Notes under the pieces: generated by a model
What the model was told of the DNA's origin: nothing
The model's database searches: none
What the model saw: only the letters and a program-made list of their open reading frames with translations
Program-made: the position numbers and the translations under genes
In this document: in pieces, positions 1 through 20,989 of the stretch
How positions within the stretch are numbered: position 1 is the stretch's first letter
Layout of the letters: each line of letters starts with the position of its first letter
Source of the DNA: Winogradskyella sp. PC-19
GTDB lineage: Bacteria > Bacteroidota > Bacteroidia > Flavobacteriales > Flavobacteriaceae
Assembly: GCF_002163855.1 (NCBI RefSeq)
Contig: NZ_CP019332.1
Span: 223,213-287,212, forward strand
Direction: 5' to 3'
DNA length: 64,000 bases

Positions 1-118
1 AAATTTTCCAGTCATTTCTGTCTGTATCAGGAATGAAGATGTCTCGCCAAGAACCATCCCAAAAATAAATGTCGTTATTTAATTCTTTCCAATTCAGTTT
101 TTCTAAATGTTTTACAAC
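1..118 (-). CDS. Partial cassette ORF without a visible ATG (left edge)
   Basis: An open frame enters from the window edge and encodes a stretch containing DIYFWDGSWRDIFI, which looks like a real small cytosolic protein. I do not recognise the family with certainty. The frame stays open up to the core GTT of the first recombination site, and an in-frame TAA sits at 122-124. There is no ATG, GTG or TTG between that stop and the conserved protein sequence. Either the start was lost when the cassette formed, or a rare start is used. It is the sixteenth cassette counted from the recombinase. Confidence 0.5.
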
Positions 119-248
119 GGTTTAGTATAACCGTCAGTTACGGGTTTTAAATTACTATTTTTCGATTAAGCACTGACGCTCGCAATTCCGAGTGGATTCG
201 GACGTAGTCGAATCCGCCGTAATTGCGGTTATACATTGTTGTAAACAG
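109..248. repeat. attC-like site 1 (short class)
   Basis: Core AAC at 116-118 and core GTT at 238-240, 125 bp in all. The outer arms GTATAACCGTCAGTTACGG and CCGTAATTGCGGTTATAC pair. The tip is a hairpin of GGATTCG (194-200) with CGAATCC (209-215). Its arm sequence differs from the other sites but the pairing is kept. Confidence 0.85.
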
Positions 249-711
249 TTATTTTTTCAGCGATGTATTTTTCAATCAGTTCTTTGTCCGCTTTATTTTT
301 TAAGATTAATAATTCATTGTTTTTATGTGTCCGATAATTCATTAAGAATTTCGTTTTTCCACTTCGAGTTAATTCCGAATATTCAAATCGATTAGGGTCA
401 AATTTTTCTGCAATCAATTCCATTTTTTGAGTTCGGTCAAGTATTTTTTTCAGTCGTGTCACTTTTCCGCTTTTCTCGTCAATTTTTAATTCCGTATAAT
501 AAATCCAAGAAGCAAATCGATAAAGAGTGTAACCGATTAAAGTCAATATTGCGACAAAAATTCCGACTCCAATTCCGAGAAACCAAATAAGAAAAATGAA
601 TGAAGCAGAAGTCCAAATCATCAGTTCTTTCCAGTTAAATGGAATTCGGTCACTCAAAGTATGAATGTCTCCATTTTTGGAAATTCTAAAATAGTCTTCG
701 TTTTCGTTCAT
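229..711 (-). CDS. Cassette membrane protein, two TM segments
   Basis: 160 residues. Two hydrophobic segments lie at about residues 31-72, followed by a soluble C-terminal half rich in charged residues. The layout resembles small bacterial PH-domain-like membrane proteins, but no family is recognised with confidence. It starts one base after the stop of the upstream 65-residue membrane protein, so the two are probably translated together and form one cassette. The ORF runs through the core and ends inside recombination site 1, so its last residues (TVYNNV) are encoded by the site itself. Confidence 0.75.
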   Translation of the reverse strand: MNENEDYFRISKNGDIHTLSDRIPFNWKELMIWTSASFIFLIWFLGIGVGIFVAILTLIGYTLYRFASWIYYTELKIDEKSGKVTRLKKILDRTQKMELIAEKFDPNRFEYSELTRSGKTKFLMNYRTHKNNELLILKNKADKELIEKYIAEKITVYNNV

Positions 712-909
712 TTAAAATGAGTCGTAAATTAGTTTTATACCAATTGCAAAAAGGATAAATGCACCTAAAATGAATTCAATCGTGAACGACATTCGCATAT
801 AATCTTCATTTTTTCTTTGAGCAACGAATTTCTTTCTTTCGTAATTGTACCATATAATTCCAAGTGCTATTAACAAAGCTCCAAGTAAAAATGTTAGTAC
901 CTTTTCCAT
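712..909 (-). CDS. Small cassette membrane protein, 65 residues
   Basis: Two predicted membrane segments (about residues 5-21 and 43-62) flank a short basic loop with YERKKFVAQRK. It starts about 10 bases inside the core of site 2 and directly abuts the 160-residue membrane protein downstream. A paired function for the two is inferred from their co-packaging in one cassette. No family is recognised. Confidence 0.65.
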   Translation of the reverse strand: MEKVLTFLLGALLIALGIIWYNYERKKFVAQRKNEDYMRMSFTIEFILGAFILFAIGIKLIYDSF

Positions 910-911
910 AA

Positions 912-1114
912 TTGTTTACAACGTTTAGTATATGGCAAGTAGGGCAGTAGAAAGCAATAAACTTTCGGATTTGCACTGAGCCAAAACGTTGTATTTTGTT
1001 TTTATCTTATTCATTTTAAAAGCCAAATCAACGATTTGGCGGTGTTTCAAATAACCACAGGACTTTCAGAAACCACTGAACGCCCTATTTGCTATATACA
1101 TTGTTGTGGTGTCG
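912..1114. repeat. attC-like site 2 (long class)
   Basis: Core AAC at 920-922 and GTT at 1103-1105, 186 bp. The outer arms GTATATGGCAAGTAGGGC and GCCCTATTTGCTATATAC pair with few mismatches. An inner hairpin GCCAAATC / GATTTGGC sits off-centre. The same inner hairpin recurs in the long-class sites at 8726 and 9549. Confidence 0.85.
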
Positions 1115-1117
1115 TTT

Positions 1118-1540
1118 TTATTTTATTTCTTTAATCTTTCCAGTATTATAAAGTTCTTCGAGCATTGGTTTCAATTCCTGCCAATCTATGTCCTTACTCA
1201 TTTCTTTGTATTCATTCGTACTATCTAAATACTCCTTCAAAAACCAAGCATCAATTTTCCCGAACTTTGGTGCATTCGTCAGGATTACTTCAATGTTTTG
1301 TTGTGTTTTTCTTTTATGAAATCCACATTCTCCTCCGTGAAAAGAGTAATTGACTCTTTCAGAAAGTTTACCACTCCTGGGAACCTTTTTGTTTCCTTTC
1401 CAAATTAATTCATCGTATTCCTTTTGAACAGCTATATCGTATTCAAATTTCTTCCCCAATCTGTTCATTAGTTCCATTCCTTCTGAACGATATTCGATAA
1501 TAGCTTTGGCTAATATGTCTAATGTGATTTTTTTATTCAT
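1118..1540 (-). CDS. DUF6896-like cassette protein
   Basis: 140 residues from the ATG at 1540; an upstream TTG extension to 1591 is rejected because it overlaps the preceding gene out of frame. The middle carries YSFHGGECGF and a TNAPKFG-DAWFLKEYL stretch. I associate these with DUF6896, a family of small cytosolic proteins often found in polymorphic toxin/immunity settings; the assignment is from memory. Its start overlaps the stop of the upstream DUF7660-like gene by 8 bases (ATGAATAA), which indicates translational coupling. The function is unknown; an immunity role is speculative. Confidence 0.7.
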   Translation of the reverse strand: MNKKITLDILAKAIIEYRSEGMELMNRLGKKFEYDIAVQKEYDELIWKGNKKVPRSGKLSERVNYSFHGGECGFHKRKTQQNIEVILTNAPKFGKIDAWFLKEYLDSTNEYKEMSKDIDWQELKPMLEELYNTGKIKEIK

Positions 1541-1808
1541 AAAACTTACCTGCATAAAGTAAAAGCGCAAAGCTCTTCCAATTAGGTTCATCCTTTATTT
1601 GTTCGCTGTCTTCACCGTACGCTTCAATGGATTCCAAAAAAGAGGAAATTGTTCCATTTTCCCAACCATTGGCTCCTGAAGAATATGGAGAAGAAGGATT
1701 TGTTTTTTCCTTCTCATCCTCATCAATTTTATCGTCTTTTAGAGCTTTTACAAATTGGAGAAATGTATCCTTTGAGTTTACTCTTTCTAATAATTCATTT
1801 AAATCCAT
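1533..1808 (-). CDS. DUF7660-like cassette protein
   Basis: 91 residues, acidic and cytosolic, with no signal peptide or membrane segment. The pattern NPSSPYSSGANGWENGTI followed by FLESIEAY and a C-terminal W-FALLLYAGKFYE resembles the DUF7660 domain. It is the first gene of a two-gene cassette and overlaps the DUF6896-like gene by 8 bases. Small acidic proteins of this family are commonly annotated as hypothetical. No biochemical role is known to me. Confidence 0.7.
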   Translation of the reverse strand: MDLNELLERVNSKDTFLQFVKALKDDKIDEDEKEKTNPSSPYSSGANGWENGTISSFLESIEAYGEDSEQIKDEPNWKSFALLLYAGKFYE

Positions 1809-1836
1809 TTTAGATGTTCACTTGAGTTTTTTCTAA

Positions 1837-1979
1837 TGCACTACAACGGTCTGGTGTATGATTTCGTTGCGTGTTTAAGCACTAAAGTTAGCAAATAAAA
1901 CACAGATAGAAAGTCCGCTAGGACTTTCGCAAGAAGACTCTAACTAACAATGAATTATACACGGTGTTAGCCTACGTTA
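1837..1979. repeat. attC-like site 3 (short class)
   Basis: Core AAC at 1845-1847 and GTT at 1967-1969, 125 bp. The tip hairpin is GAAAGTCC-GCTA-GGACTTTC. It is very close in sequence to the sites at 13415 and 14767, which suggests copying within the array. Confidence 0.88.
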
Positions 1980-2301
1980 TTTTATTTCCAAATCTAATTT
2001 CTGCAATTATCATCATTGTTATGAAATAAATAAGCGGAATTAGACCAACAAGTATCCAAATCAGATGTTTTTTCCATTCAGGTTTTCTGTTAGACCATAC
2101 AATTAATGGGTGAATTAAAGACCAACAAAGTGAACCAAAAACCAATACTAAATTCAGATAACTACCATATTGATAAATCCAACGATATTCGGAAATTCGA
2201 AATCTTTGCACATAATTCCCAATTAACATTCCAGTCAAACAAATCCCAATGATTATGATTGCTGTCCATTTTGGATTGTATGTTAATTTTGAAAGTTGCA
2301 T
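1972..2301 (-). CDS. Cassette membrane protein, three TM segments
   Basis: 109 residues with about three hydrophobic segments (residues 14-31, 45-65 and 80-103). It abuts the upstream 161-residue membrane protein, whose stop directly precedes this start. The stop TAG lies in the private core sequence of site 3. No family is recognised. Two small membrane proteins in one cassette is an arrangement also seen at 229-909. Confidence 0.65.
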   Translation of the reverse strand: MQLSKLTYNPKWTAIIIIGICLTGMLIGNYVQRFRISEYRWIYQYGSYLNLVLVFGSLCWSLIHPLIVWSNRKPEWKKHLIWILVGLIPLIYFITMMIIAEIRFGNKIT

Positions 2302-2787
2302 CTAAATTAATCCAGCTTTTTTCATTATTCCGAGTGCTTTTTCTGTTTCGTTTGTTCCGTCGTTAAGTGAACCTGGAAGCATAATAAGTCGGCTTTTTAT
2401 TTTCCCTTCATTTTGCTCAAATTCCACTTTGAAGTAACTTCTTGTTAAAAACTTTTTCGCAGGCTTAAATTCCACATTTTTTATTTTATTCCGCTCGATA
2501 ATTGGCGTAGAACTCAAATTCAGGCTTTTAACTAAGCTATACGCAATATAAATTCCAATTCCGCAATAAATAGCGAATTCTATCCAGTCTTCTTTTACGA
2601 TTTTTGTGAACGCTATATAGAATAAAACAATTGACATTATTCCATAAATTCCAAGTATTTGGTAAATGTTATTCCCAGTTGTCAATTCCGCTACATTTCC
2701 AACAATTCCATCACGAGTCAGAACTATCTTGTCAGTCAGAATGTGACAAAATCCAGTTTTGGTTTTAAATTTTTGTTCGTTTTCCAT
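2302..2787 (-). CDS. Cassette membrane protein with PH-like layout
   Basis: 161 residues. A soluble N-terminus (KTGFCHILTDKIVLTRDGI) is followed by two membrane segments (about residues 43-62 and 68-86) and a soluble C-terminal domain. Related flavobacterial proteins are often labelled phosphoribosylaminoimidazole-succinocarboxamide synthase. That name is not supported, because the protein is far too short and has two membrane segments. It is the first gene of the cassette spanning 1967-2800. Confidence 0.7.
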   Translation of the reverse strand: MENEQKFKTKTGFCHILTDKIVLTRDGIVGNVAELTTGNNIYQILGIYGIMSIVLFYIAFTKIVKEDWIEFAIYCGIGIYIAYSLVKSLNLSSTPIIERNKIKNVEFKPAKKFLTRSYFKVEFEQNEGKIKSRLIMLPGSLNDGTNETEKALGIMKKAGLI

Positions 2788-2993
2788 AATGTAGGCTAAC
2801 GGTCTTGTATATGGCTCGTAGCGTGTAAATTAGCTATTAATTTTCGGATTAAGCACAAGCCAGATTTTTAATTTTTATGTTTAATTTTTTATAAATATAA
2901 GTAAATTAAAAATATGGCGAACTCGCAAATATACCTTAACTTAGTTTAAGTAACTGTCTAGCTATGAGCTATATACGTTGTTGTGTGTAGTGC
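2788..2993. repeat. attC-like site 4 (long class)
   Basis: Core AAC at 2798-2800 and GTT at 2980-2982, 185 bp. An inner AT-rich stem pairs GCCAGATTTTTAATTT with AAATTAAAAATATGGC. Its right core GTTGTGTGTA is complementary to the left core at 7905-7913, so the whole 4.9-kb restriction-modification segment is one cassette. Confidence 0.82.
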
Positions 2994-3112
2994 TTTTGCG
3001 TACTACTTGGCTTTAAATAGTTAAATACAGTTCAAATTTGCGCGATGGCGAGACATACTCTTTTACAGTTTTGGTGAAGCTTGGATGAAGCGACTGTAAA
3101 TGTGTATGGCTT
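2994..3112. other. Non-coding 3' flank of the restriction-modification cassette
   Basis: No ORF is seen here. It holds an inverted repeat TTTACAGT / ACTGTAAA around 3062-3100 that could end transcription, and a GCGATGGC motif at 3043. Similar GCGTTGG motifs recur at 3116, 7779 and 7811, so the restriction-modification pair is framed by them inside its cassette. Confidence 0.4.
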
Positions 3113-5932
3113 TTAGCGTTGGCTTTCAGATATGTAATTGTCAATGTTTTCTATAATTTTGTTTGGCGTTAGTTTATCTTTAGGATTACTTCCAATGATA
3201 TGTGGTATATACTTTTCATTTTTCAATTCTGATATAATGTTTGCTTTTGTATTTCCTTTACCAGAGTGATGAAATATTTGACCAGTAACTATGACGGAAA
3301 ATTTACTTTGTCCAATTTGCAATGAGCGAAGTACGTTTGTATTTTGCAATTTACTATTATTAAAAAACTCGATTTTCCAATCCGTAGTTGATACACCAAT
3401 TTTTTCAAAATAATTATTTAACTCCTTTCGAATTAGTGCTTGGTCAGTAACTTCGCCAAGAACGCAAATATTAAATGGATTATCAATTTTAATATCTTTT
3501 TTTGTCCTGTAAACAGGTTGTATTTCATTTAGTGACCTTGAAAGCGTTTCTATATTTTCTTGTGCCTCGTTCAATTGCATTTCCAAGAGTTCGCTTTTAA
3601 ATTTTTCATCTTTTAATTCATCAATTGTTTTCTCAAAATCAGAGAGCCAATCTAAATTTTCCTTTTCCTTTTCTGATTGGTCAGGTTTGCTTTCAATTAA
3701 CTTTTTTTGACTTTGATTATATTTTATCAACCTTTTCTCAAACGATGATTCAAATAGTTCAATTTCTTGGTCTTTTAAAGCGGTAAAGAAAGTAGGGTAG
3801 TCGTTTGGTGAAAGCATAAAGAACCTTACTGTTTCTTTATTCTCGGTTCTTTCTACATAATTTTTTCCCGCTTGTAATTTTAAAGCATTTTCAGGTTTGA
3901 AATCTTTATCATCTTTAATTTCGACGATTATCGTTTCTTTTTTAGTTTTAATCAGAAAGTCAGGATAAAATCCATAATAGAAACCATTTGTTTTCTTATA
4001 TGCAATACCAAAATAGCGACTTTCTCTCTCGCCGTTTTTAAACCACCACAATATATCATCGTCAGTTCTATCAACTTCTTCAATAAAATCTATTTCTGGT
4101 TGTGAGAAATTTATCTTGCCATTTTTATTTTTTTTGACATATAATTTCTGGTCTTGATAGTTTTTTATAATAGACTTATCCGAATTTTCTACAATTTCAT
4201 AATCTGTAAAAATGCTTATGCTTGACGGAATTTCCCAAGAAGTATTAACAACGACTTCATCTTCTCTTGTTGGAAGATTTGCATAAAGGTCTTTTGCTTG
4301 TTCTAATAATCTTCTAATCCTCGGATTATTACTTCGGTTCATAACCACAAGTGATATTTTATCCTCATCTCCAATATCGAATGCTTTTTTAAACCAAGTG
4401 CGAATAGATGATTTTATAACAATTGCTGAACGAGAAATAGCATAAGGCTTTGCCATTTCAGCGCAAAAGTTCGTATAACTTGATGTAATATCATTTATGT
4501 CTTTTCTAATAGATTTTTTATCGGAAAAATCCACTTCTTGCCTTTCATCTGCATCTATACCTTTAACTACTCCTTCTAATCCTACAGTTTTGTGGATTTC
4601 CTTAATGTTTGGATTTATGTCCGACTTCGTATCCAATTCTTTAGCTGAATCTAATAGACATTTTTTAAACGCTCCAGATAATCTTGTAAGTTCTCTTTTT
4701 CTCCTTATAAATTCGCTTGTAAGCTTTATAGGTTTGGAATTTATGTTTTCATCTCTTTCCATTTGTAGTTCACTCACATAATTATTTGCGAGCTCCTGAA
4801 CTATTTCAAAATTGTCAGATGCAGAATATATATAACCATAATTTAATTCAGGATTGTTAACATAATGCTTTTGCTCCGGCATACGCATTATTCTACCTAA
4901 TGTTTGGATATTAAAACTATAGCGTTCTTGTTTCCACTCACGCTGTAAAAAAATTAACGATGCTCTTGGGCAATCCCAACCTAAAGCAATCGCCTCTTTA
5001 AAAATTAATACGTCGACTAGACTGTCATTTGGCTTTACTTTCTCGTCAAGTTCTTTAATATCGACTCCTGAAATTCTTATTTCAAGTTTACCATTTGCAA
5101 TAGTAATGTCTTGGTCTGCCAACAACCCAATAATATAATCTTCTGGGTTTGAACTGTCGGTTTGTTTTTTATTGGGTATTTGTATTAAAAGCAAAGGATT
5201 AATATTTGTTCCCTCATTTTCATACATTTTTTTTAATTGTTTTCTTTTATTTAGAGCAACCTCAAGTAAGTCTTTATTTTCACGAATTTTTTTGCTACTC
5301 GGATTAATTCTCACTTCACTTTTAATCATTCCCTGTGCAATTACTTTTGCCAAAGGAATATCTATTAATGAACCGTTAATACTTGATGGCGTAGCAGTCA
5401 TCTCAATAATTAAAGTGGGATTTATTTCATCGATGACTTCTTTCGCCTTTTCAGCTTTTGCAGTTCTATGACTTTCATCAATAATGAGAATTATCTCTCT
5501 ATCTTCTTCACGAGTATTACTGACTACAGATTTTAAATTTTTATCTAATTCGTTTTCAAGTCGAAAAGAATTATTTTTTTTAATTAAGCTATCCCAATTA
5601 ATAAATACAATTTCGTTTTCTTCTATTAAATTATTTTGTAAATCATCAATAGTTATACATTCAAGCAATTTCTCATCTTCTAAATATCGAGTTAAACTTT
5701 CTCTACTTTGTTCGTGTAAAGAATTAACTGACAGCCAAATGAAGGAATAAGATTTATCAGCTTGTTCTTTAACAAGTTTAGTTAATGATTGAGAAATCAT
5801 ATAAGTTTTACCTGAACCAGTTGGTGCTTTGAAAACTATAGTTCCTTGTTCTCTATACTCATCATTTAATAATTTAATTGCAGTATCTGTAAGCTCATTC
5901 ACATATTCCTGCTGATATGGTATGTGTTTCAT
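3113..5932 (-). CDS. res: Type III restriction enzyme Res subunit
   Basis: 939 residues, a normal length for Res (usually 900-1000). Helicase motifs are in order: Walker A APTGSGKT at 36-43, DESH at about 152, a TATPSS motif, and TLGRIMRMPEQK as motif VI. A PD-(D/E)xK-type nuclease follows at about 650-675 (FYPDFLI, then VEIKDD). Together with Mod it cuts unmethylated DNA after ATP-driven movement between sites. Its start overlaps the mod stop by 4 bases (ATGA). About 120 residues after the nuclease (from about 815) form an extra C-terminal domain I do not recognise. The gene lies entirely within one integron-like cassette. Confidence 0.92.
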   Translation of the reverse strand: MKHIPYQQEYVNELTDTAIKLLNDEYREQGTIVFKAPTGSGKTYMISQSLTKLVKEQADKSYSFIWLSVNSLHEQSRESLTRYLEDEKLLECITIDDLQNNLIEENEIVFINWDSLIKKNNSFRLENELDKNLKSVVSNTREEDREIILIIDESHRTAKAEKAKEVIDEINPTLIIEMTATPSSINGSLIDIPLAKVIAQGMIKSEVRINPSSKKIRENKDLLEVALNKRKQLKKMYENEGTNINPLLLIQIPNKKQTDSSNPEDYIIGLLADQDITIANGKLEIRISGVDIKELDEKVKPNDSLVDVLIFKEAIALGWDCPRASLIFLQREWKQERYSFNIQTLGRIMRMPEQKHYVNNPELNYGYIYSASDNFEIVQELANNYVSELQMERDENINSKPIKLTSEFIRRKRELTRLSGAFKKCLLDSAKELDTKSDINPNIKEIHKTVGLEGVVKGIDADERQEVDFSDKKSIRKDINDITSSYTNFCAEMAKPYAISRSAIVIKSSIRTWFKKAFDIGDEDKISLVVMNRSNNPRIRRLLEQAKDLYANLPTREDEVVVNTSWEIPSSISIFTDYEIVENSDKSIIKNYQDQKLYVKKNKNGKINFSQPEIDFIEEVDRTDDDILWWFKNGERESRYFGIAYKKTNGFYYGFYPDFLIKTKKETIIVEIKDDKDFKPENALKLQAGKNYVERTENKETVRFFMLSPNDYPTFFTALKDQEIELFESSFEKRLIKYNQSQKKLIESKPDQSEKEKENLDWLSDFEKTIDELKDEKFKSELLEMQLNEAQENIETLSRSLNEIQPVYRTKKDIKIDNPFNICVLGEVTDQALIRKELNNYFEKIGVSTTDWKIEFFNNSKLQNTNVLRSLQIGQSKFSVIVTGQIFHHSGKGNTKANIISELKNEKYIPHIIGSNPKDKLTPNKIIENIDNYISESQR

Positions 5933-7722
5933 TTATTCTTAAGTTTTGCAATTTTACGATAAACGTTAAGTATCACTTCTGGAATAGGTTTAACTTTAAA
6001 TTTTTTATTCAAATTTTCAAAATCTTCTTCCATATAATTATGGTCATAACTGAATACATAAATTACTATTTTTCTTATATCCTTCAGCTTATTTAAAGCC
6101 ATACAGCATTCTTCAATAAAATCTTCATCGTAAATAATTGCAGTATGTTGGTTTGTATTTTTGAAAATTGCGAACTTACTTTCTTTTGAATTATCCAAGA
6201 CAACGTCAAAAGTATTCTCTGAAATACAGAGTAATTCTGTACTTTTCGCAACCAAATTTCGTTTATCATTGTCGGTTAAAACAAATGGTACATAATCTGT
6301 TTTGAAGTATTTTAAATTTGCTGGAATACCTTCAATTTCATTATAACCATCAATAACTTTTTGTATTCTTGGATAGGTCACTTCTTCACAAATATTATTT
6401 TCATTATTTGTACAAAGAATAATTTGTCTTTGACCTCCATCCATTTTATTTAATTCGATGACCGCTTGACCAGTTGTTCCACTACCAGCAAAGAAGTCAA
6501 GAATTTTAGCATTCTTATTCCCTGTTATAAAAATGATATCCTTTATTAATTCTAAAGGTTTTGGATTATTAAAAGCCTCATAACCTAATATTGCTTTCAG
6601 TTGATTTGTACCGTTACCGCTACTATATTCTGGACGATATAAAACCGATTTGGGTTTTTTTGATGGTAAATCTCCTAATTTTGGTCTTTGTTTTTTGTTT
6701 AAAGTAATTCCATTTTTTGTACGTGAGACTATAATATCGTTTATGTGAGTTCTAAATTTATGCTCAAAACCCCAAGTCCACCTCAAAAGTTGTTTTTTTG
6801 AATTAATAGGAAGAACAACTTCATATCCTTTTTTAGAATATTTTTTTATTAAGCTGTCAACATATTCATCATTAAATGTGTTTGATTCCTTGTCAAAAAT
6901 TCTATTGTATTCCTTTTCTTTTATTAAGCTAACTTTATCTTTTTTTACCAAAAGTGGAAAATACATTTGTTCTCTATCTTCTCGAAATTTTTCTTTTCCA
7001 TCTGCTAAAATTCCACGTCCTTTTTTATAAGGACCAATTTCGTCTGTAAGCCACTCATCATCTGAATCTTCTTCAATATTAAATTCTAAAATTGATGCTT
7101 GTGTTTTAGATTTAGCATAAAATAGTGTGTATTCGTGAGTTCCTGCAAAACCAAATTGGTCTTGGTTTCCTTTATGGTTCATAATTGTCGGAACTGTCGC
7201 TATATGATTTAGTTCGCCAAATATTTTATCGCAGAGAAGTTTTAGGTTAAAAACCTCGTTGTCATCAATTGATATAGCTATTACACCAGAATTTTTTAAA
7301 AGATTTTTAGCTAAACGTAATCGTTTATTCATAAAAGAAAGCCAAGTACTATGCCTGAATCTATCTTCTTGTTTTATGAATCTATCATTATATCTAAAAT
7401 CAGTTTTTCCCTTTTTATCGGTTTTTCCTGTGTTATATGGTGGGTCAATATAAATAACATCAATACCTTTTTTGTGAGTAAAATTAAGTGTGTATAAAGT
7501 ATGATAATTATCTCCTTCAAATATGAAGTGCGTAGGTTTTTTAGTGTCTTTTTTTATTTCTCGTTTTTTATCCTCAACTAAAACTGGCAATTCTTTTTCA
7601 CATTTGTCTGCTATTCTCTCGGGCTTATCTTCCCATACCAATCCATAACCTTTTTTTTCAAGTCTTTCTAATTTGGCAATTAGTTGTTGTTTAGAATAAT
7701 TTTCGTATTTGGTTTTCGCCAT
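5929..7722 (-). CDS. mod: Type III adenine-specific DNA methyltransferase Mod subunit
   Basis: 597 residues. The catalytic motif DPPYNTG (about residue 93) comes before the SAM-binding motif DFFAGSGTT (about residue 411), the order of beta-class amino-methyltransferases such as Mod of type III systems. The long segment between them is the target recognition region. The N-terminus (YENYSKQQLIAKLERLEKKGYGLVWE) is typical of this Mod branch and supports the ATG at 7722. It methylates one strand of the recognition site, guides Res and protects host DNA. A 4-base overlap couples it to res. Confidence 0.93.
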   Translation of the reverse strand: MAKTKYENYSKQQLIAKLERLEKKGYGLVWEDKPERIADKCEKELPVLVEDKKREIKKDTKKPTHFIFEGDNYHTLYTLNFTHKKGIDVIYIDPPYNTGKTDKKGKTDFRYNDRFIKQEDRFRHSTWLSFMNKRLRLAKNLLKNSGVIAISIDDNEVFNLKLLCDKIFGELNHIATVPTIMNHKGNQDQFGFAGTHEYTLFYAKSKTQASILEFNIEEDSDDEWLTDEIGPYKKGRGILADGKEKFREDREQMYFPLLVKKDKVSLIKEKEYNRIFDKESNTFNDEYVDSLIKKYSKKGYEVVLPINSKKQLLRWTWGFEHKFRTHINDIIVSRTKNGITLNKKQRPKLGDLPSKKPKSVLYRPEYSSGNGTNQLKAILGYEAFNNPKPLELIKDIIFITGNKNAKILDFFAGSGTTGQAVIELNKMDGGQRQIILCTNNENNICEEVTYPRIQKVIDGYNEIEGIPANLKYFKTDYVPFVLTDNDKRNLVAKSTELLCISENTFDVVLDNSKESKFAIFKNTNQHTAIIYDEDFIEECCMALNKLKDIRKIVIYVFSYDHNYMEEDFENLNKKFKVKPIPEVILNVYRKIAKLKNK

Positions 7723-8044: not shown

Positions 8045-8046
8045 TT

Positions 8047-8717: not shown

Positions 8718-8725
8718 TGTTCAAC

Positions 8726-8932: not shown

Positions 8933-8937
8933 TTTTT

Positions 8938-12283: not shown

Positions 12284-12299
12284 TGTTGGTTTGGTTAAA

Positions 12300-12440: not shown

Positions 12441-12443
12441 TAT

Positions 12444-13346: not shown

Positions 13347-13414
13347 TCTGTTGATGGTTTGTAATAATTGTAAATCTATTACGAAAATTTTAATGTTTAT
13401 TGTGGTTTTCCGTA

Positions 13415-13557: not shown

Positions 13558-14748
13558 TTTATTCCACACTACATATCCAATTAGTCCAATTCCGATAATA
13601 ATCATTCCTACAATACCAATTTTCAGCCCTAACATTGGGTTATCATATAATTTGTCATTAAACAACCCAAAAACGAAATAAATTAATTTTGTAGGCAGGA
13701 ATGCCAAACTAATTAGAATTGCTAAATATTTTGGATTAGAATATTTTGTTAAAACCGAATGAATTATTGGTGCAATATGAATTTCCGAAATTGCAAGAAA
13801 AAATAATGAAATCAAATAAGTTATTGTATGCTGTTCAGTCGGTATTTCTGGAATCAGAAACAATATTCCAAATGATATTACTCCAAAAACAAACCCAAGC
13901 ATTAATTTAAAGAATTGACTACTGTAAAAATATGTCCACAAAATAATTGCAATTATACTAATGGGTAAAATGAAAATAGAGTTGATTGATTGCCATAAAT
14001 GATTTGGAATACCTAAAGTTGATATTTCGCTCAATTGTAATTGTAAATCAAAAGTCCGAATGCTTGATAATTCGTAGAATCCCCAAAATAAACCAACAAC
14101 AATAAATGCAATTAAGATGTTTAAAATTCTTTTACTTATTGGAAACTCATTTTTCTCAATTTCATCCAATCTTTTTTCCTTTGTAAGAACGATTGGAATT
14201 ATTGAGATTAACATTAAGATTCCAGATAAAACGAATCCAATATTGTAGCCATATTTTTCTCCTAAATAACCAATTAATAAAATACCCAAAAATGAACCTA
14301 AATTTATTGCGAGATAAAATATCGTGAATCCTGAATCTAAAAGTTTAGTCTTATTCAAATACGTCTTTCCAAAATTTGAGATGACATTTGGTGTGAAAAA
14401 CCCACTTCCTAAAACGACAAGAAATAAACCTAAATAAAGTCCAGTTGTGGAAGGAATGCACAAACTAAAAGCTCCGATTGCTTGAATAATTCCACCTATT
14501 ATTATTGATTTTTTATTTCCGATTAGTAAGTCTCCAAAAAGAGCTCCAACGATTTGAGAAAAAACTAATGAAGCTGTAAACCAACCATAAATGCTTAATG
14601 CTTCAGTTCTTTCCATTTTCAGCGTCTCTCCAACCATATAAAGAACCACAAGAGCTCTAAAACCATAATAAGATGCTCTTTCCAACATTCTGGAAATAGA
14701 GTAGTAGAGAGTTTCTTTTGTGTGTTTCTGATTCTGAATTTTTTCCAT
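13534..14748 (-). CDS. POT/PTR-family proton-coupled peptide transporter
   Basis: 404 residues with about 12 membrane segments. The N-terminal MLERASYYGFRALVVLYM corresponds to the ERxxYYGxR-type motif of POT transporters, and FTIFYLAINLGSF matches the PTR2 family signature in TM5. POT proteins import di- and tripeptides with protons. It is shorter than most family members (450-550). The frame passes the core and ends in recombination site 11, so the last residues (NYLQHRV) come from the site. A transporter this large is unusual cargo for a cassette. Confidence 0.82.
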   Translation of the reverse strand: MEKIQNQKHTKETLYYSISRMLERASYYGFRALVVLYMVGETLKMERTEALSIYGWFTASLVFSQIVGALFGDLLIGNKKSIIIGGIIQAIGAFSLCIPSTTGLYLGLFLVVLGSGFFTPNVISNFGKTYLNKTKLLDSGFTIFYLAINLGSFLGILLIGYLGEKYGYNIGFVLSGILMLISIIPIVLTKEKRLDEIEKNEFPISKRILNILIAFIVVGLFWGFYELSSIRTFDLQLQLSEISTLGIPNHLWQSINSIFILPISIIAIILWTYFYSSQFFKLMLGFVFGVISFGILFLIPEIPTEQHTITYLISLFFLAISEIHIAPIIHSVLTKYSNPKYLAILISLAFLPTKLIYFVFGLFNDKLYDNPMLGLKIGIVGMIIIGIGLIGYVVWNKNYLQHRV

Positions 14749-14766
14749 TAAGTTTCTTGGGTTGGT

Positions 14767-14911
14767 AAATTACCTACAACGTGTTTGTGTATGATTTCGT
14801 TGCGTGTTTAAGCACTAAAGTTAGCAAATAAATCATAGATAGAAAGTCCGCGAGGACTTTCGTAGGTAGGCTATAACTAGCAATGAATTATACACATTGT
14901 TGTGCGTAGTT
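14767..14911. repeat. attC-like site 12 (short class)
   Basis: Core AAC at 14778-14780 and GTT at 14899-14901, 124 bp. The tip hairpin is GAAAGTCC-GCGA-GGACTTTC. The outer arms GTGTATGATTTCGTTGCG and AGCAATGAATTATACAC pair. Confidence 0.9.
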
Positions 14912-14912
14912 T

Positions 14913-16034
14913 TTATTCCAAATCCCAATCATCAATTTCAAACCACGCAGATTTCCCTTTTTTTAAATATTTTACTATTCTTTTCTCTGGACGAGTCCAT
15001 TTTTTAGTTTTCTCATTTAAAATCCGAATGTTATCATTATTATAAATTACGATACCTTTCCTATCACAACTTTCAAGAACCTTGACATTGATTTTTAAAT
15101 TTTCTGCATCTTTTTCAATTAGAATTCCTTTAACAATACAAGTGTCGTCCATCCATTTGTCTTCCTGACTTTGGCTGGTAAATTCATAGTTATAATTGAA
15201 CTCCAAAACATCGCCAATATTAAATTCAGCGAATGTCTCTCTCTTTTCTTCCAATTCTTTTTTCTCTCGTTCTAATTCATCCGCTTTTGCTTTTTCTTCC
15301 CATTCTACATATTCTTTTACTTGTTCCTCAAATCTGATGTCTTCATTCTTTAAAGAACGGTAAAAGCTTTCTAAAATCACAACAGACATTGATTCTGGAT
15401 GACCAATTTTATTATCTCTGAAAAATTTAGAAAGACGAGAACCTCCCCAAAGTTGCCAGTTATTTCTCATCCATAATCCAATTCCAAATCTGTAATTTCC
15501 ATTAATATATTCTTTTTCAGTAAGTTTTGTGATTTTTACTTTTAAGCTGTCTGAATAAATCTTATTTAGTGAATTTATAGCATCATCAAGGTCTTTTGGA
15601 ATATAATGTCCTCGCAAACTATCTGTTGTATGTCTGACTTTATTTTCCTCGTTCCATTTGAACTCTAATTTTTTAAAAGGTTCAATTATCTTTTGTTCAT
15701 TAAATTCTCCGTTGTTCAGATATTCTTTAAAGGCAATCAAAATAACTTCAGTTTGATGTTGTGACACACCTTTGTTGTCCAAATACTTTACAATTCTTGA
15801 ACCATAATTATCTCTATCAGTCCAATTGAAAATCGTCTTGTATTCTCCGCCCCAAGGATAACTTATCTTTTTAATAGTATCGTTTCCACTTCTCTTAATT
15901 TGACTTTTAATACTGTCAGAAGCGTGAACATTTAGATAAGAAACTGCTTTTTTTAAATTTTTTGGTGATTTGGTTTCTTGTCCGAATATTGGAATAGAAA
16001 AGATTAAAAGCAGTAAAATAGTCGAGAATTTCAT
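14913..16034 (-). CDS. Secreted protein with two DUF6794-like repeats
   Basis: 373 residues with a cleavable signal peptide (ending about PIFGQ, residue 19). Residues 145-210 carry the DUF6794 pattern (DAINSLNKIYSDSLK, MRNNWQLWGGSRLSKFF, HPESMSVVILESFYR). Residues 25-105 are a diverged second copy (SYLNVHASDSIKSQIK, YGSRIVKYL). A Lys/Glu-rich helix (about 245-270) links to a beta-rich C-terminal domain. It is a single-gene cassette; the function is unknown and a periplasmic location is likely. Confidence 0.72.
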   Translation of the reverse strand: MKFSTILLLLIFSIPIFGQETKSPKNLKKAVSYLNVHASDSIKSQIKRSGNDTIKKISYPWGGEYKTIFNWTDRDNYGSRIVKYLDNKGVSQHQTEVILIAFKEYLNNGEFNEQKIIEPFKKLEFKWNEENKVRHTTDSLRGHYIPKDLDDAINSLNKIYSDSLKVKITKLTEKEYINGNYRFGIGLWMRNNWQLWGGSRLSKFFRDNKIGHPESMSVVILESFYRSLKNEDIRFEEQVKEYVEWEEKAKADELEREKKELEEKRETFAEFNIGDVLEFNYNYEFTSQSQEDKWMDDTCIVKGILIEKDAENLKINVKVLESCDRKGIVIYNNDNIRILNEKTKKWTRPEKRIVKYLKKGKSAWFEIDDWDLE

Positions 16035-16131
16035 TTTTCAGTTATTTAGTTTCTCGAAAATAATTCGTTTCTTTTTATCATAAAAGCCATAATGAGTGAA
16101 CTATGTTTTTCGTTGAGTAACGAGGTTTCTT

Positions 16132-16276
16132 AAATTACGCACAACGGTTAGGTATAAGAATAGTTGCGTGGTTAAGTCACTAATTTAGCAAACAAAAACT
16201 AGCCAGAGGAAAATCCGAAGGATTTTCCGAGTAAGCAATGACCAAGCAATTATTTTTATACAATGTTAGCTACCGT
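16132..16276. repeat. attC-like site 13 (short class)
   Basis: Core AAC at 16143-16145 and GTT at 16265-16267, 125 bp. The tip hairpin is GGAAAATCC-GAA-GGATTTTCC. The outer arms GGTATAAGAATAGTTGCG and AAGCAATTATTTTTATAC pair. Confidence 0.88.
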
Positions 16277-17663
16277 ATTTTTTTAGTTTTTCTTTTAATT
16301 CAATTTCGCTTATCGGTTGCACTTCAACAAATTCTTCTTCATTTTCTCCAATTACTATAACTTTCTCGCCAAAGGTAAGTCCGCTATTATCAAATCCAAT
16401 TGATATGATTATTGCTTTTTCTCCTTTAGGTAATTTGTTGTAACCATCTTCATTTTTCGTAAACCAATATTCATTTGTTGATTTTTCTATTCCGCTTAAA
16501 ATGACATTTCTTTCTTCTAAAATTAGACTTGTTAAATTTGACTTTGTCGAAGTCTTTACAGCTAATTTAGTTGGACTTGCTTTTGGGTCTTCGTAAAAGA
16601 AATCTACATTAATCCATCCAAAATTTATTGCGTCGTAGGTTATAAGAACATTATTCAGTTCCTTGAGTTTTGTTGTGTCAATTATTCGGCTTGTGTCAAT
16701 TTTAGTGAGCTTTTGAGATGCGAATTTTTTATAAAGTTCAATTTTCCAACGTCCGTGTTCTTTTGCATCTTTTAATATTGACTCGTGAGCTTCTTTTTGC
16801 ATTTCCGTTCTAGGGCCTCCATAAAGTCCTGGTGGAATATTATTTAAATGGTAATTGACACTTTCTGTTGAATCTTTGATAAAATATTGAACAGTCAACT
16901 CGTCAATTTCCCAAAGGTTCTTATCAAGATTATTTATGTAAATATTTAAAACATCTTTCCAACAAGTTGTGCTAAATCTATCAGAAAATTCTTTTGTAGC
17001 TAAAAGTGTGTTTTCAAAATCGGTTATGTTCCCATAATAGTTGTAATCCGTATATTTTAATGTATCTGTAGTAATGCCATAATAGTTAGAACATTCTGTC
17101 CAAAACCGATTTTTACTTATAAATTTTATAGGATAAGGTGTTAAAGATTTTGATGGTTCTTCTATTTTGTCCCAATTGATTAATCCATTTTCTTCTCTGA
17201 TTCCTAAAAATATTTTAGCATCTGCTTTATTTCCTTTTTGAGGAATTTGCAATCTTATAGATTTTCCATTTGCTATTTTTAATTCATTCCCGTTTTCATC
17301 ATTTGCCGACAAAAAAACCATTCCTAACGATTCAAGAATTTTATCGTTATGCATAGTTTGCAAATTAGAAGCGATAAAGTCCGATTTAGTGAAATTTTCT
17401 TTAATTTCTATAAAAACGTTTTTAGAAATACCATTACCATTTTGGTCAACAATTGAATTTTCTGGAATAAGTAGAATTGTTCCACTTTTTCCAACTAGCG
17501 TATTCGGTTGAGATGGATTAATTTCAAATACTTGACCTTTATTGATGGATTCTAAAGCACTTATTAATTCAGTCGGAAGGTTCCCGAATTCTTGATTTAT
17601 TTCTTTTTCCTTTGCACAGCTTAAGACTGTGCAAGCCATCAATAAGAAAAGAATTTTATTCAT
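16266..17663 (-). CDS. Cassette lipoprotein with ZU5-like N-terminal domain
   Basis: 465 residues. The lipobox TVLSC (Cys at 16) marks a lipoprotein. Residues about 45-150 (GTILLIPENSIVDQNGNGI, then NVFIEIKENF and KILESLGMVFLSA) resemble the ZU5/beta-sandwich domains common in Bacteroidota surface proteins; this call is tentative. The middle has WTECSNYYGITTDTLKYTDY, and the last third is a second beta-rich domain. Its stop TAA is formed by the recombination core (GCTAAC). It is a single-gene cassette. Confidence 0.68.
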   Translation of the reverse strand: MNKILFLLMACTVLSCAKEKEINQEFGNLPTELISALESINKGQVFEINPSQPNTLVGKSGTILLIPENSIVDQNGNGISKNVFIEIKENFTKSDFIASNLQTMHNDKILESLGMVFLSANDENGNELKIANGKSIRLQIPQKGNKADAKIFLGIREENGLINWDKIEEPSKSLTPYPIKFISKNRFWTECSNYYGITTDTLKYTDYNYYGNITDFENTLLATKEFSDRFSTTCWKDVLNIYINNLDKNLWEIDELTVQYFIKDSTESVNYHLNNIPPGLYGGPRTEMQKEAHESILKDAKEHGRWKIELYKKFASQKLTKIDTSRIIDTTKLKELNNVLITYDAINFGWINVDFFYEDPKASPTKLAVKTSTKSNLTSLILEERNVILSGIEKSTNEYWFTKNEDGYNKLPKGEKAIIISIGFDNSGLTFGEKVIVIGENEEEFVEVQPISEIELKEKLKKYGS

Positions 17664-17682
17664 GTGTTCGGGTGTTTGTTTA

Positions 17683-17824
17683 TATGGTAGCTAACGGTTT
17701 CGGCTATGAGTAGTTGCGTGGTTTAGCACTTAAATTTGCAAGTACACACCAAGTTGGAAATTCCGCAGGAATTTCCAAAGTAGGCGAGAAAAAGCAATTA
17801 CTTATAGCCATTGTTGGGCACAGT
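17683..17824. repeat. attC-like site 14 (short class)
   Basis: Core AAC at 17693-17695 and GTT at 17813-17815, 123 bp. The tip hairpin is GGAAATTCC-GCA-GGAATTTCC. The arm GGCTATGAGTAGTTGCG pairs with AAGCAATTACTTATAGCC, a covarying change relative to most sites, which have GTGTATGA. Confidence 0.88.
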
Positions 17825-18562
17825 ATTTATTTTACATTTTTCTATTTTATTATCTCTTATTGAGTCAAATTTTCGCTCGTACTTAAAATTAAATCTTTCT
17901 GTTAAATCACTATAAGTCGAAACGTAAAATTCGTTAAAAGTGTAAAGGTCATCTTCGTTAGAAACCTCTCCATTTTCATCTATCATTTTTCCCATACTTC
18001 CAGTTCTTCCCCAATGAAAAACTCCAAGTTTGTCTCTTGGTGGTTCGTTAGGATTTTTCTCCAAAGTCCATTCCTCATTAAAGTCTCGAACATCCATTTT
18101 TGGCAATTCAGTTCGTTTACCATTTTGGTCAACCAAATAGTATTTATGGTCGATAAAACCATATTTTTGTTCCTTGTCAAGAATTAGTATTCCGTCATTC
18201 GGTATTTTGTAAACTAATCCTTCTTCGGTTTTTTCCAATTCTATTCCGCAATCTTTTTTATATATGATATTTACTCGTCCACGATAATTTTCAGGGATTA
18301 AAAAAACTTCTGGTCCAACAGTATTTATTCCTCTCCATATTGGCCAAAAGGCTACTATTCCAATAATAAAAATTCCGATTGGAATTAGTCTTTGTTTCCA
18401 AGTCTTTTTTAAAGAGACCAAAACCAGAATAACTCCTATTACAAAAACTGGCAGTCCGATTATTGCAAAGAACGCAGCGAAAGTCAATCCAAATGCTCCT
18501 ATTGCGAGTAAAATCAGTCCGCTGTAATATAGAATGTTACTTGTCTTATCGGTCATTTTCAT
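17798..18562 (-). CDS. Cassette membrane protein with DUF6843-like tail
   Basis: 254 residues. Two to three membrane segments occupy residues 10-75. The periplasmic domain has IPENYRGRVNIIYKKDCG followed by YKIPNDGILIL, a pattern I associate with small Bacteroidota envelope proteins of the DUF6843 kind (tentative). A second in-frame ATG (18556) is equally possible as start. The ORF extends beyond the core GTT into site 14, so its last residues (PNNGYK) come from the site. It is a single-gene cassette. Confidence 0.65.
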   Translation of the reverse strand: MKMTDKTSNILYYSGLILLAIGAFGLTFAAFFAIIGLPVFVIGVILVLVSLKKTWKQRLIPIGIFIIGIVAFWPIWRGINTVGPEVFLIPENYRGRVNIIYKKDCGIELEKTEEGLVYKIPNDGILILDKEQKYGFIDHKYYLVDQNGKRTELPKMDVRDFNEEWTLEKNPNEPPRDKLGVFHWGRTGSMGKMIDENGEVSNEDDLYTFNEFYVSTYSDLTERFNFKYERKFDSIRDNKIEKCKINTVPNNGYK

Positions 18563-18704
18563 ATTGTGCCCAACGGTTTTGTGTATGATTAGTGGCGTGT
18601 TTAAGCACCTAATTTAGCAAATAATTACCGAATAGAAAATCCGCGAGGATTTTCGTAAGTAGGCGAGAACTAGCAATTAATTATACACGTTGTTGTAGGT
18701 AGTT
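18562..18704. repeat. attC-like site 15 (short class, nearest the recombinase)
   Basis: Core AAC at 18572-18574 and GTT at 18692-18694, 123 bp. The tip hairpin is GAAAATCC-GCGA-GGATTTTC. The private right core GTTGTAGGTA is complementary to the attI-side end of the first cassette (19761-19770). Confidence 0.9.
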
Positions 18705-19750
18705 TTTTTACAGTTATTCTTTAATAATTCAATTCCTCTTTTCTGTCCTAGTTCAGATAATTCATTCCAATCTTTACAGGCTAATTCCAGTTTTCCATTT
18801 TCAAAGAAAATAGCAGCTCTGTTATAAAGTGCATCTATGTTTTTTGGGTCTAACTCATAACTTTTGGTGAAGTTTTTTATAGAATTCTCATAATCTTTAT
18901 TCTGATAAGAGATTATTCCTTTATTAAAATATTTTCCAGCTTCTTGAATTATTCTTGTGTCTCCACCATAAAAATTGTCTAACTGATAGAACGAATCAGT
19001 AAAATATTTCATTGAAATTCCACGAAATGTTTTGGTTTTTTCGTCTTTTAAAACAAATGATATTTCCAGCTTTTCAAGATGTTTGAATTTATTTAAATTC
19101 CAAAGTTTATACGATTTGTCAATTACTTTTTTAATTCTCTCAATTTTACTTGAGTCATTTGTGTTAGAGGAATTTATTAAGGTACTTATATTTTTATTTT
19201 TTAAATCAATTGTTATAATTCCTTTAGCTTTAAAGTTGCTGTGTTTTTTTTTGAAAGCTTTGTTCAGTTCAAGCATTAAACTCGATTTTAAAGTTGGTGT
19301 ATAGAATTCATTTGCAACTTGATTTTTACTTTCTCCTTTTTCCTCTTTAATTTCATTGAATAATTTTTGTTCTCTAATAAAATAGAACCTCTTTAATTTG
19401 TCGTTTTCCATTCCGTTTATTCTTTCACAGATAATCAACGTGTCATTTTTTACTCTTTCTATTTCGTAACCAGAAGTTGAAGATGTTTTGATAAAATTTT
19501 GATTTAATGAGAATGGAAAACATACCTCATTTACTCTATGAGTTGGATTTCCATTAGTACACATTTTCAATTTTTTAAAAGTGTAATTAACGTAAGAAGA
19601 GTCAGTAAAGAATCGGTCAATTAAACTACTGCCATCTTTCATCTCAATCTTATATTTTATCCAATCTCCATTCAATTCCGAAATATTGACTTTTTGACAA
19701 TACGATTTGATTGTAATTAGAAGGAATAATAAAAGTATGTTTTTCGTCAT
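18677..19750 (-). CDS. First-cassette secreted protein with TPR repeats
   Basis: 357 residues with a signal peptide (ending about KSYCQ, residue 19). The N-terminal beta domain (SELNGDWIKYKIEMKDGS) is lipocalin-like in rhythm. Residues about 270-340 are two tetratricopeptide repeats (AGKYFNKGIISYQNKDYENS, then KSYELDPKNIDALYNRAAIFF). The start codon is 18 bases from the attI-side core, so this cassette would be the newest under integron rules. The frame ends inside recombination site 15, giving the tail YNNVYN. Confidence 0.75.
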   Translation of the reverse strand: MTKNILLLFLLITIKSYCQKVNISELNGDWIKYKIEMKDGSSLIDRFFTDSSYVNYTFKKLKMCTNGNPTHRVNEVCFPFSLNQNFIKTSSTSGYEIERVKNDTLIICERINGMENDKLKRFYFIREQKLFNEIKEEKGESKNQVANEFYTPTLKSSLMLELNKAFKKKHSNFKAKGIITIDLKNKNISTLINSSNTNDSSKIERIKKVIDKSYKLWNLNKFKHLEKLEISFVLKDEKTKTFRGISMKYFTDSFYQLDNFYGGDTRIIQEAGKYFNKGIISYQNKDYENSIKNFTKSYELDPKNIDALYNRAAIFFENGKLELACKDWNELSELGQKRGIELLKNNCKKTTYNNVYN

Positions 19751-19921
19751 TTTTTTTAATTACCTACAACACATATATATGTCTGTGTTTTGTACTAAAA
19801 TCTAATTTAGGAAAAATTATTATAAAGCAATGTGTTTCCTCATAAAAATTCATTTTACTTATCATTTATTTTGTATAACATTTTTTGTTATTTTAGTATA
19901 ATAGTTATACAAAATACACGT
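19751..19921. promoter_or_regulatory. Candidate attI site and divergent promoter region
   Basis: The array ends at core AAC 19768-19770. Unlike the internal sites there is no long palindrome. Instead a short inverted pair AACACA (19768-19773) / TGTGTT (19784-19789) flanks the palindrome ACATATATATGT. Integron attI sites likewise use a simple pair of recombinase-binding boxes. Reading toward the cassettes, a weak TTG-N23-TAGATTTT pair (about 19792-19826) could be a common promoter; this is only a guess. Confidence 0.6.
19869..19914. promoter_or_regulatory. Perfect 11-bp inverted repeat before the recombinase
   Basis: TTTTGTATAAC at 19869-19879 and GTTATACAAAA at 19904-19914 are exact reverse complements separated by 24 bases, ending 7 bases before the recombinase ATG. 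It may be an operator controlling the recombinase or an accessory recombinase-binding pair. Confidence 0.6.
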
Positions 19922-20989
19922 ATGGATTTTAATAAATATAGTTTTGTCCCAAGTAATCACCGAGGTGTTGCGGTTATACTCATTCAATTTCCACACTTAC
20001 AGGAATTAAAGAAGGCATTAAAAGCAAAATTTCCCTCAGCTAAATGGAGTGCAACAAAAAAATCTTGGTATTTACCAGATATTCCTTCTGTCAGAATCGC
20101 CTTAAATATAAAATCAGTAGATACTGTTGTTAAGAAAGTAAAAAACATTCATCCAATAAATCAAGAAGCATACTTGAAGCTAAATCAGCAACTACAACTT
20201 AAAGATTATAGTAATAGTACCAAACGAATATATTTAGCCGAATTTAATCACCTTTTAAATCTTTTAGATGATTATGATGTTTCCGACTTAAATCCAAAGC
20301 GACTTAAGGACTACTTTCTCTATTGTATTAAGGTAGAAAAAATGGGTGAACGTAAACTTAATGGTAAGATTAATGCCATTAAATTTTATTTTGAACAAGT
20401 ATTACATCGACCAAAGATGTTTTTTGATATTCCTAGACCTAAAAAACCGCTTACACTTCCTAAAATGTTAAGTAAATCCGAAGTTAAAAAGTTATTTGAT
20501 GTGACAACTAACCTTAAGCACAGGATAGCACTTATGCTTTGTTATGGTATGGGATTACGTGTATCTGAAGTCGTACGTCTTAAGTTATACGATATAGATA
20601 GTAAGCGTATGGTTGTACATATCCGTGGTGGTAAAGGAAAAAAAGACCGCTATGTTCCTTTACCAGCGACTATTTTACCAAATCTTAGAGAATACTATCT
20701 AACTTACAAGCCAAAAGAATTTCTTTTTGAAGGGCAATACGGCGGTGCGTATGCTAGATCTAGTCTGCAACAGGTTTTTAAAAAGGCAATGAAAAAAGCT
20801 AACATCAAAAAAAACATTGGTATTCATGGATTACGCCATTCTTATGCAACACATTTATTAGAATCTGGTGCAGATATGCGTTTTATACAAGAGTTATTAG
20901 GACACAATTCTATAAAAACAACCCAAGTATACACAAAAGTTACGCCTAGAAGTATTTCTAAAATTAAAAGCCCATTAGATTCATTATAA
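19922..20989 (+). CDS. Tyrosine recombinase of the cassette array
   Basis: 355 residues from the ATG at 19922; an upstream Met at 19832 would add an unlikely hydrophobic leader across the inverted repeat. Catalytic residues are R213 (GLRVSEV), K238 (GGKGKKDR), H302 and R305 (HGLRHSYATH), H328 (LGHNS) and Y337. The K-to-H distance is 64 residues (72 in E. coli XerD, 106 in IntI1), so the IntI-specific insertion is missing. The C-terminus IKSPLDSL resembles IntI1 (VRSPLDAL). About 65 extra residues (VILIQFPHLQELKKALK, KSWYLPD) precede the SAM-like core-binding domain. Divergent orientation beside the last cassette makes it the likely integrase of the array. Confidence 0.9.
   Translation: MDFNKYSFVPSNHRGVAVILIQFPHLQELKKALKAKFPSAKWSATKKSWYLPDIPSVRIALNIKSVDTVVKKVKNIHPINQEAYLKLNQQLQLKDYSNSTKRIYLAEFNHLLNLLDDYDVSDLNPKRLKDYFLYCIKVEKMGERKLNGKINAIKFYFEQVLHRPKMFFDIPRPKKPLTLPKMLSKSEVKKLFDVTTNLKHRIALMLCYGMGLRVSEVVRLKLYDIDSKRMVVHIRGGKGKKDRYVPLPATILPNLREYYLTYKPKEFLFEGQYGGAYARSSLQQVFKKAMKKANIKKNIGIHGLRHSYATHLLESGADMRFIQELLGHNSIKTTQVYTKVTPRSISKIKSPLDSL

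Follow-up and report, generated by a model that had tools for sequence, protein, structure and literature searches.

We describe here an array of gene cassettes in a 64,000-nucleotide stretch of the Winogradskyella sp. PC-19 genome (NZ_CP019332.1, positions 223,213 to 287,212 of the forward strand; hereafter the window), in which each cassette is closed by an attC-like hairpin site and the array ends at an attI-like site beside a tyrosine recombinase gene. Very probably the array serves to capture cassettes in the manner of an integron, under a tyrosine recombinase that does not belong to the IntI family. The sequence evidence consists of the cassette units, the complementarity of each cassette's own ends, the crossover at attI, the fold of the bottom strand, the anatomy of the enzyme, the co-location of recombinases and sites, and cassettes shared between genomes.

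Cassettes, hairpin sites and the attI crossover

Fifteen related hairpin sites with AAC...GTT ends on the plus strand were found by repeat search and reading between window positions 116 and 18694 (Table 1). They fall into two size classes of 123–127 nt (11 sites) and 185–189 nt (four sites), the long class having a different interior and the same outer arms. A pairing-based detector that is independent of the repeat search (AAC, 5–6 nt, 16-bp stem, 3 nt, GTT; threshold 14 of 16) returns exactly those 15 sites on the plus strand, and no match in first-order Markov copies of the window (five copies, one strand each). Its two minus-strand matches, at 40780–40950 and, within an open reading frame (ORF) of the array, at 18431–18538, score at the threshold and are taken as chance. 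The sites close 15 whole cassettes of 791–5113 bp, one site each, and a 16th cassette is cut by the left window edge. An earlier, sequence-only reading of this DNA had counted at least 16 cassettes and 15 related palindromic sites, and the second detector arrives at the same 15. That reading had also put all cargo on one strand, which agrees with the ORF reading of 1–19770 and 19922–20989: the larger cargo ORFs run on the minus strand, opposite to the recombinase on the plus strand.

If cassettes move as circles, each should start with bases complementary to those at its own 3' end. Counted from GTT on, this identity runs for 10 nt in 13 of the 15 window cassettes, for 9 nt in one (8922 to 9559) and for 5 nt in one (1105 to 1845). 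Over the 11 positions after GTT the own-end score is 144 of 165, compared with 71.7 ± 8.1 (maximum 114) under permutation, and none of 100,000 permutations scored as high. Taking together the window, the clade A loci described below and parts of other genomes (26 loci in all), we find an own-end match at 6/7 or 7/7 positions in 170 of 209 cassettes (175 of 216 with L005 and L019, here left out for their overlap with L080 and L081; 167 of 203 with exact copies counted once), compared with 7.8 (maximum 18) under free permutation and 25.8 (maximum 42) under permutation within loci. Cassette position 11 is an A in all 170 own-end-matching cassettes, the R box of 10–11 nt is cassette-specific, and 12 of the 170 starts fit GTTRRRY. 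Own-end complementarity of this kind is what units that form circles and insert again would show. Throughout the arrays, cassettes stand in tandem and in a single orientation with one hairpin site each, the exception being four weak mirror hits that overlap stronger ones.

Read on the plus strand (for the cassettes, the bottom strand), the 15 window sites have L arms that pair over 16 bp in 98.8% of 240 cells, and pairing drops to 26–43% in slid structures. Eleven of the 16 stem pairs have changed on both sides, and none of 500 shuffles was as high on all five measures used. Pair 12 is a G·T wobble in all 15 window sites and pair 7 in 14 of them; among 212 sites from 20 loci the corresponding numbers are 211 and 171, and the neighbouring pairs covary. 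In this larger set 138 stems pair without a bulge, and no conserved extrahelical base was seen. Because the partner strand of a G·T wobble carries a C·A mismatch at that pair, the top strand should fold worse, and the bottom strand is the more stable one for the L arms of 211 of 213 sites and for 199 of 213 whole sites. A G follows AAC in 211 of 213 sites.

The attI-like site lies where the sequence-only reading had seen a simple site beside a divergent tyrosine recombinase (Table 1). Its crossover, G|TT on the cargo strand between 19770 and 19769, was placed by comparing one close pair of related loci, L014 and L079, which are 95.9% identical over 7,371 bp until the identity ends at the crossover (...CGTG|TT versus ...CGTG|AT, cargo strand). 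The sequence-only reading had named a lack of cassette polymorphism between close strains as a refutation, and these two relatives do differ at the crossover. Across clade A, attI is conserved as far as AAC and far less past it, and a pattern search finds it in 23 of 25 loci, with none in L005 and L019. In 191 pairs with more than 150 nt upstream, 24 alignments stop within 15 nt of the crossover, five pass it and 162 stop earlier; the crossover of L017 was probably misplaced in this comparison. The first cassette of L014, L015, L025 and L028 starts with AT, not TT, after the G of attI, and some such AT-starting first cassettes resemble palindromic units of about 100 nt without an ORF.

Two layouts occur among related loci. 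The recombinase diverges from the array in clade A and reads towards it in clades B–D, where the first cassette or attI lies 34–135 nt past the stop codon in 11 of 11 loci, all hand-picked for having a site near the recombinase; the own-end match in these codirectional loci is 7/7 in eight, 6/7 in two and 5/7 in one. Over the roughly 1.5 kb covered around each gene, sites lie near 18 of 30 recombinases and near none of 14 XerC/XerD-type genes. Cassettes also recur between genomes. Among 28 cross-genome matches (at least 350 bp, at least 80%), 17 of 56 ends are no more than 30 nt away from a crossover in both genomes, as counted from the table of matches, and one cassette of about 1 kb is common to four genomes (G121, G250, G170 and G152), its gene part also being found in G004.

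From these features we infer the following course of events. A circular cassette would consist of one gene unit and one hairpin site, and the recombinase would bring double-stranded attI, next to the recombinase gene, together with the bottom strand of the site in folded, single-stranded form. Strand exchange at G|TT, presumably resolved by replication, would then place the new cassette first in the array, and the reverse reaction would excise cassettes. The strand may be chosen by the G·T wobbles and the unequal spacers (5–6 versus 3 nt), and not by extrahelical bases of the kind read by the IntI insertion.

The recombinase and its relatives

The recombinase, whose start, judged from its orthologues, is most likely at 19922 to give a predicted 355 amino acids, matches Phage_integrase PF00589 with 139.5 bits. 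Its best NCBIfam matches are XerA_Arch NF040815 (194.5 of 220 bits) and IntI TIGR02249 (194 of 265 bits, in two stretches), and it stays below the XerC and XerD equivalog cut-offs (176.8 of 335.15 and 175 of 329.6 bits). Residues R213, K240, H302, R305, H328 and Y337, which we take to be the catalytic ones, are invariant in 26 aligned orthologues. The sequence-only reading had held that the enzyme lacks the insertion specific to integron integrases, which is about 40 residues long in IntI; two comparisons bear this out. Against the solved IntI4 (2A3V), the alignment breaks and chain residues 208–243 have no counterpart in the recombinase. In an alignment of 130 proteins, from which L061, L160 and L186 were omitted (internal stop), the insertion stretch measures 65 residues in 32 of 32 IntI, 25–34 in 14 of 14 XerC/XerD-type proteins and 23–25 in 84 others, including the 17 array recombinase rows kept. 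The predicted structure has its best PDB match in IntI4 (E 1.7e-15), followed by XerA.

Trees were built without the insertion columns from 77 and 61 of the 130 rows. They place IntI in one clade (100/100) and the window orthologues in another (100/100) outside it, with the array recombinases spread over several clades, all outside IntI. Rooted on the XerC/XerD-type rows, IntI sits among the array recombinases, although deep support is weak (91/89, 85/41). Of the two origins offered by the sequence-only reading, parallel invention therefore calls for refinement, shared ancestry with IntI being at least as likely.

An enzyme without the IntI insertion would also suit ordinary double-strand exchange of the Xer kind on the same platform, with an 11-bp arm, a 6-nt centre and an 11-bp arm as the substrate and the hairpin incidental or a terminator. 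Xer core sites have arm-spacer-arm lengths like those of the sites here, and the invariant letters of the stem could be base contacts. However, 11 of the 16 stem pairs covary, a core site would be shorter than the stem, and almost every site shows the strand asymmetry; we regard such exchange as unlikely, if not negligibly so. It is more improbable still that mobility lies in the past, leaving relic arrays that have been rearranged as their repeats recombined homologously. The diverged ends of one window cassette, the poorly matching cassettes elsewhere and internal stops in two orthologues (L017 and L023) would fit such decay, but 14 of the 15 window cassettes retain ends of 9–10 nt, the window recombinase has no stop, the catalytic residues are invariant in 26 rows, and attI differs between relatives that are 96% identical.

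Control of the recombinase was considered as well. In many loci of clade A (L001–L028, by eye) the inverted repeat TTGTATAAC...GTTATACAA, or a similar one, overlaps the region of the recombinase promoter. The SOS box of Flavobacteriaceae is given as GGA-N5-TCC (PMC8565304). A by-eye reading of 19771–19921 showed no such box and a different inverted repeat, and lends SOS control of the recombinase no support.

Distribution in genomes, phages and plasmids

A genome scan returned 30 loci. In 28 of these (L001–L028) the protein is 64–81% identical to that of the window over all or nearly all of its length (L011 from residue 28); by record name, 26 are flavobacterial and two are Cytophaga or Cytophagaceae. 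R1, a covariance model built from the 15 window sites, matches upstream of the recombinase in 17 of the 28 loci at E ≤ 0.01 and in 18 at E ≤ 1 (L017 at E 0.13 only), these E-values being rough because of a short calibration. Matches occur in 15 of 15 loci with at least 2 kb upstream, and the ten without a match all have less than 1.8 kb; the upstream contig is shorter than 3 kb in 17 of 28 loci, perhaps because repeats break assemblies. In addition, 11 of 11 orthologue genomes examined have 9–55 sites each (E ≤ 0.01), and the concern that the recombinase might be common in genomes without such sites is not borne out. All sources together gave 93 R1 hits, 92 of them on the strand expected and the remaining one a weak mirror hit. 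Two further Xer-type genes are present in each of seven genomes checked, five of which have one above the XerD cut-off.

Three draws of genomes were surveyed, the R1 surveys scoring 9–17 candidates per genome, for which reason absences of sites are weak: a family draw of 249 genomes around Maribacter halichondriae, a phylum draw of 296 genomes around the same species, and 151 genomes from the phylum of a Chloroflexi metagenome-assembled genome (draw names inferred from the centre genomes). Close orthologues were found in 13 family-draw genomes (62–77% identical, one with internal stops), followed by a gap to 49%. R1 sites were found in 212 of the 249 family-draw genomes, in 49 of the 296 phylum-draw genomes, 11 of which are also in the family draw, and in none of the 151 from the Chloroflexi phylum, a draw without a positive control. 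True IntI (TIGR02249 over cut-off) was found in none of the 249 family-draw genomes, whose 14 control genomes were also negative; the phylum draw, with 84 of 296, serves as the working control, and 12 family-draw genomes recur in it, none of them over the cut-off.

These numbers bear on whether the arrays could consist of ordinary integron cassettes on which a true IntI, encoded at another place in the genome, acts in trans, a distant intI having been named as a danger in the sequence-only reading. A few phylum-draw genomes do combine IntI with sites (G279, G290, G340 and G343 among others), IntI1 is reported to use a site of phage P12002L (PMC9892861, see below), and in G317 a site of the same family with a decayed right end (L175:11148–11271) lies about 1 kb from a true IntI, which suggests cassette traffic between both systems. 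Still, the family draw has sites in most genomes and IntI in none, R1 on 20 true-IntI loci gives three weak hits (E 0.064 or more), and GTTRRRY starts are rare, leaving service in trans very improbable. Equally hard to sustain is that the sites are repeats spread by transposition in the manner of miniature inverted-repeat transposable elements, or terminators, with the recombinase a bystander phage-type integrase: the sites do share internal sequence families and these genomes do contain many tyrosine recombinases, but the own-end match binds each site to its own gene unit, each array keeps one orientation save for the mirror hits, and attI lies at the recombinase in both arrangements, whereas the other Xer-type loci have no sites.

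Relatives in IMG/VR (L089–L118) are 35–48% identical and mostly 265–282 amino acids long, and some of their contigs have rows of sites upstream. When a looser detector is used, an own-end match of 6/7 or better is seen in 19 of 39 viral cassettes, compared with 1.5 (maximum 7) under permutation, counts that are partly double given that L106 and L109 are near copies. Rows of short cassettes stand upstream of recombinases of about 267 amino acids in L092, L096, L105, L106 and L107, and some viral contigs of the set exceed 150 kb (L097 and L109). In Polaribacter phage P12002L (L241), seven R1 hits at E under 1e-4 lie within 14503–39244, some beside methyltransferase genes. The Chryseobacterium plasmid NZ_CP041688 (L239) has four R1 hits (30–42 bits) downstream of a codirectional recombinase, and the system may also be carried on plasmids. 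A recombinase adjacent to tet(X3) (L238:2916–3623) is 47% identical to that of the window over residues 120–355; this lead was dropped, as the Acinetobacter plasmid record contains no R1 site.

The window cargo includes type III restriction-modification, a POT/MFS transporter, TPR and DUF proteins, and several proteins without a Pfam match; one cargo protein matches an 'integron cassette protein' family below threshold. The cassette from 1105 to 1845, whose ends have diverged, contains two overlapping ORFs (DUF6896 and DUF7660) and is perhaps fused or decaying. To the right of the array, the ORF list reads as ordinary genes, photolyase-like and others. Rfam at gathering thresholds found a single tRNA and nothing else in the whole window.

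Table 1 Features of the window (R1 scores of the 15 sites hold by construction, the model having been built from them)
Feature	Position	Strand	Evidence
15 complete cassettes, cargo ORFs, many without assigned function	118..19769	-	ORF reading, own-end match
attC-like site 1	116..240	-	R1 92.3 bits
attC-like site 2 (long class)	920..1105	-	R1 74.2 bits
attC-like site 3	1845..1968	-	R1 111.2 bits
attC-like site 4 (long class)	2798..2982	-	R1 78.8 bits
5.1-kb cassette: type III restriction-modification (mod 5929-7722, res 3113-5932) and site 4	2800..7912	-	own ends match over 10 nt; ResIII, N6_N4_Mtase
attC-like site 5	7911..8034	-	R1 107.3 bits
attC-like site 6 (long class)	8734..8922	-	R1 89.6 bits
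attC-like site 7 (long class)	9559..9745	-	R1 77.2 bits
attC-like site 8	10502..10628	-	R1 117.6 bits
attC-like site 9	11517..11641	-	R1 119 bits
attC-like site 10	12308..12431	-	R1 118.8 bits
attC-like site 11	13424..13547	-	R1 117.7 bits
attC-like site 12	14778..14901	-	R1 117.6 bits
attC-like site 13	16143..16267	-	R1 116.3 bits
attC-like site 14	17693..17815	-	R1 115.2 bits
attC-like site 15	18572..18694	-	R1 127.1 bits
attI-like site	19768..19793	-	same site upstream of recombinase in related loci, divergence at crossover
Inverted repeat TTGTATAAC...GTTATACAA, operator-like, before recombinase start	19871..19912	.	similar repeats in orthologous upstream regions, by eye
Tyrosine recombinase (non-IntI, clade A), predicted 355 aa	19922..20989	+	PF00589, orthologue alignment

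Relation to known integrons and implications

Several points weigh against an integron-like platform with its own recombinase. About one fifth of the cassettes (39 of 209) are without own-end match, part of which, in our reading, reflects missed sites that fuse two cassettes. At 12 of 30 recombinase loci there is no site within about 1.5 kb. One bulged base is required in 74 of 212 stems, and bulges are thus present. Both the detector and R1 were made on the bottom strand with stated spacer lengths, which favours finding sites that way. Recombination is inferred from sequence, with no event observed and with one close pair compared rather than strains of a single species. Finally, P12002L_attC2 is reported to recombine with attI1 by IntI1, top-strand recombinants being absent (PMC9892861). 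This site was not matched to any of the seven R1 hits in the phage; if it is one of them, IntI can use these sites too.

The array, attI and one-orientation hairpin cassettes are all present, and the functional analogy with an integron, drawn from the layout in the sequence-only reading, stands. Like IntI integrons (class 1, chromosomal and archaeal), the system has one-orientation arrays, attI beside the recombinase and AAC/GTT hairpin sites. It also shares the G|TT crossover and the complementary cassette ends of canonical integrons. A further likeness is the G after AAC, described 'in most attC sites' of integrons (PMC2727003). Unlike them, it has an enzyme without the insertion (23–25 instead of 65 residues) and outside the IntI clade, a cassette-specific R box in place of GTTRRRY, and conserved wobbles with no conserved extrahelical base seen. 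The orientation of the clade B–D loci is that of Treponema integrons, in which the recombinase reads towards attI and the cassettes (PMC3607928), but Treponema uses intI, whereas the enzymes here have no insertion and the window locus is divergent. XerC/XerD and archaeal XerA share the fold and the catalytic residues, with NF040815 as the best NCBIfam match, although the enzyme falls below their cut-offs and the genomes' own Xer-type genes have no sites beside them. CTX-type phage integration by host XerCD also joins a hairpin without extrahelical bases to insertion-less recombinases, as set out in PMC4792948, but it involves neither a cassette array nor a recombinase dedicated to it. Judged by its anatomy and by the action inferred for it, the system described here is integron-like, and it is not a member of the IntI-defined family. 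No prior description of such a system was found in the literature searched, a body outside which preprints and most subscription journals fell.

The IntI insertion is reportedly necessary for activity, for which PMC9668308 cites Messier and Roy 2001. It has also been proposed as what permitted the recognition of single-stranded substrates (PMC4792948), and a natural system without the insertion would make the origin of integrons directly testable. We tentatively raise the possibility, somewhat short of even, that integrons as a mode of gene capture predate IntI and extend well beyond it: a broad set of recombinases without the insertion would have run, and would still run, cassette arrays with folded sites in Bacteroidota and in some viral contigs, IntI being one derived branch that acquired the insertion and the reading of extrahelical bases at a later stage. 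On this view the Flavobacteriaceae would rank with the families that have the most integron-like arrays. The integrase rule of IntegronFinder needs an IntI domain (PMC9668308), so the system would be missed or called as orphan sites; the IntegronFinder 2.0 paper names one complete integron in Bacteroidetes proper, that of Salinibacter ruber M1 (PMC9024848), and the present survey has IntI in 84 of 296 phylum-draw genomes and in none of the family draw. The system described here would give marine bacteria a further route of gene exchange, and it suggests that the strand can be chosen in another way.

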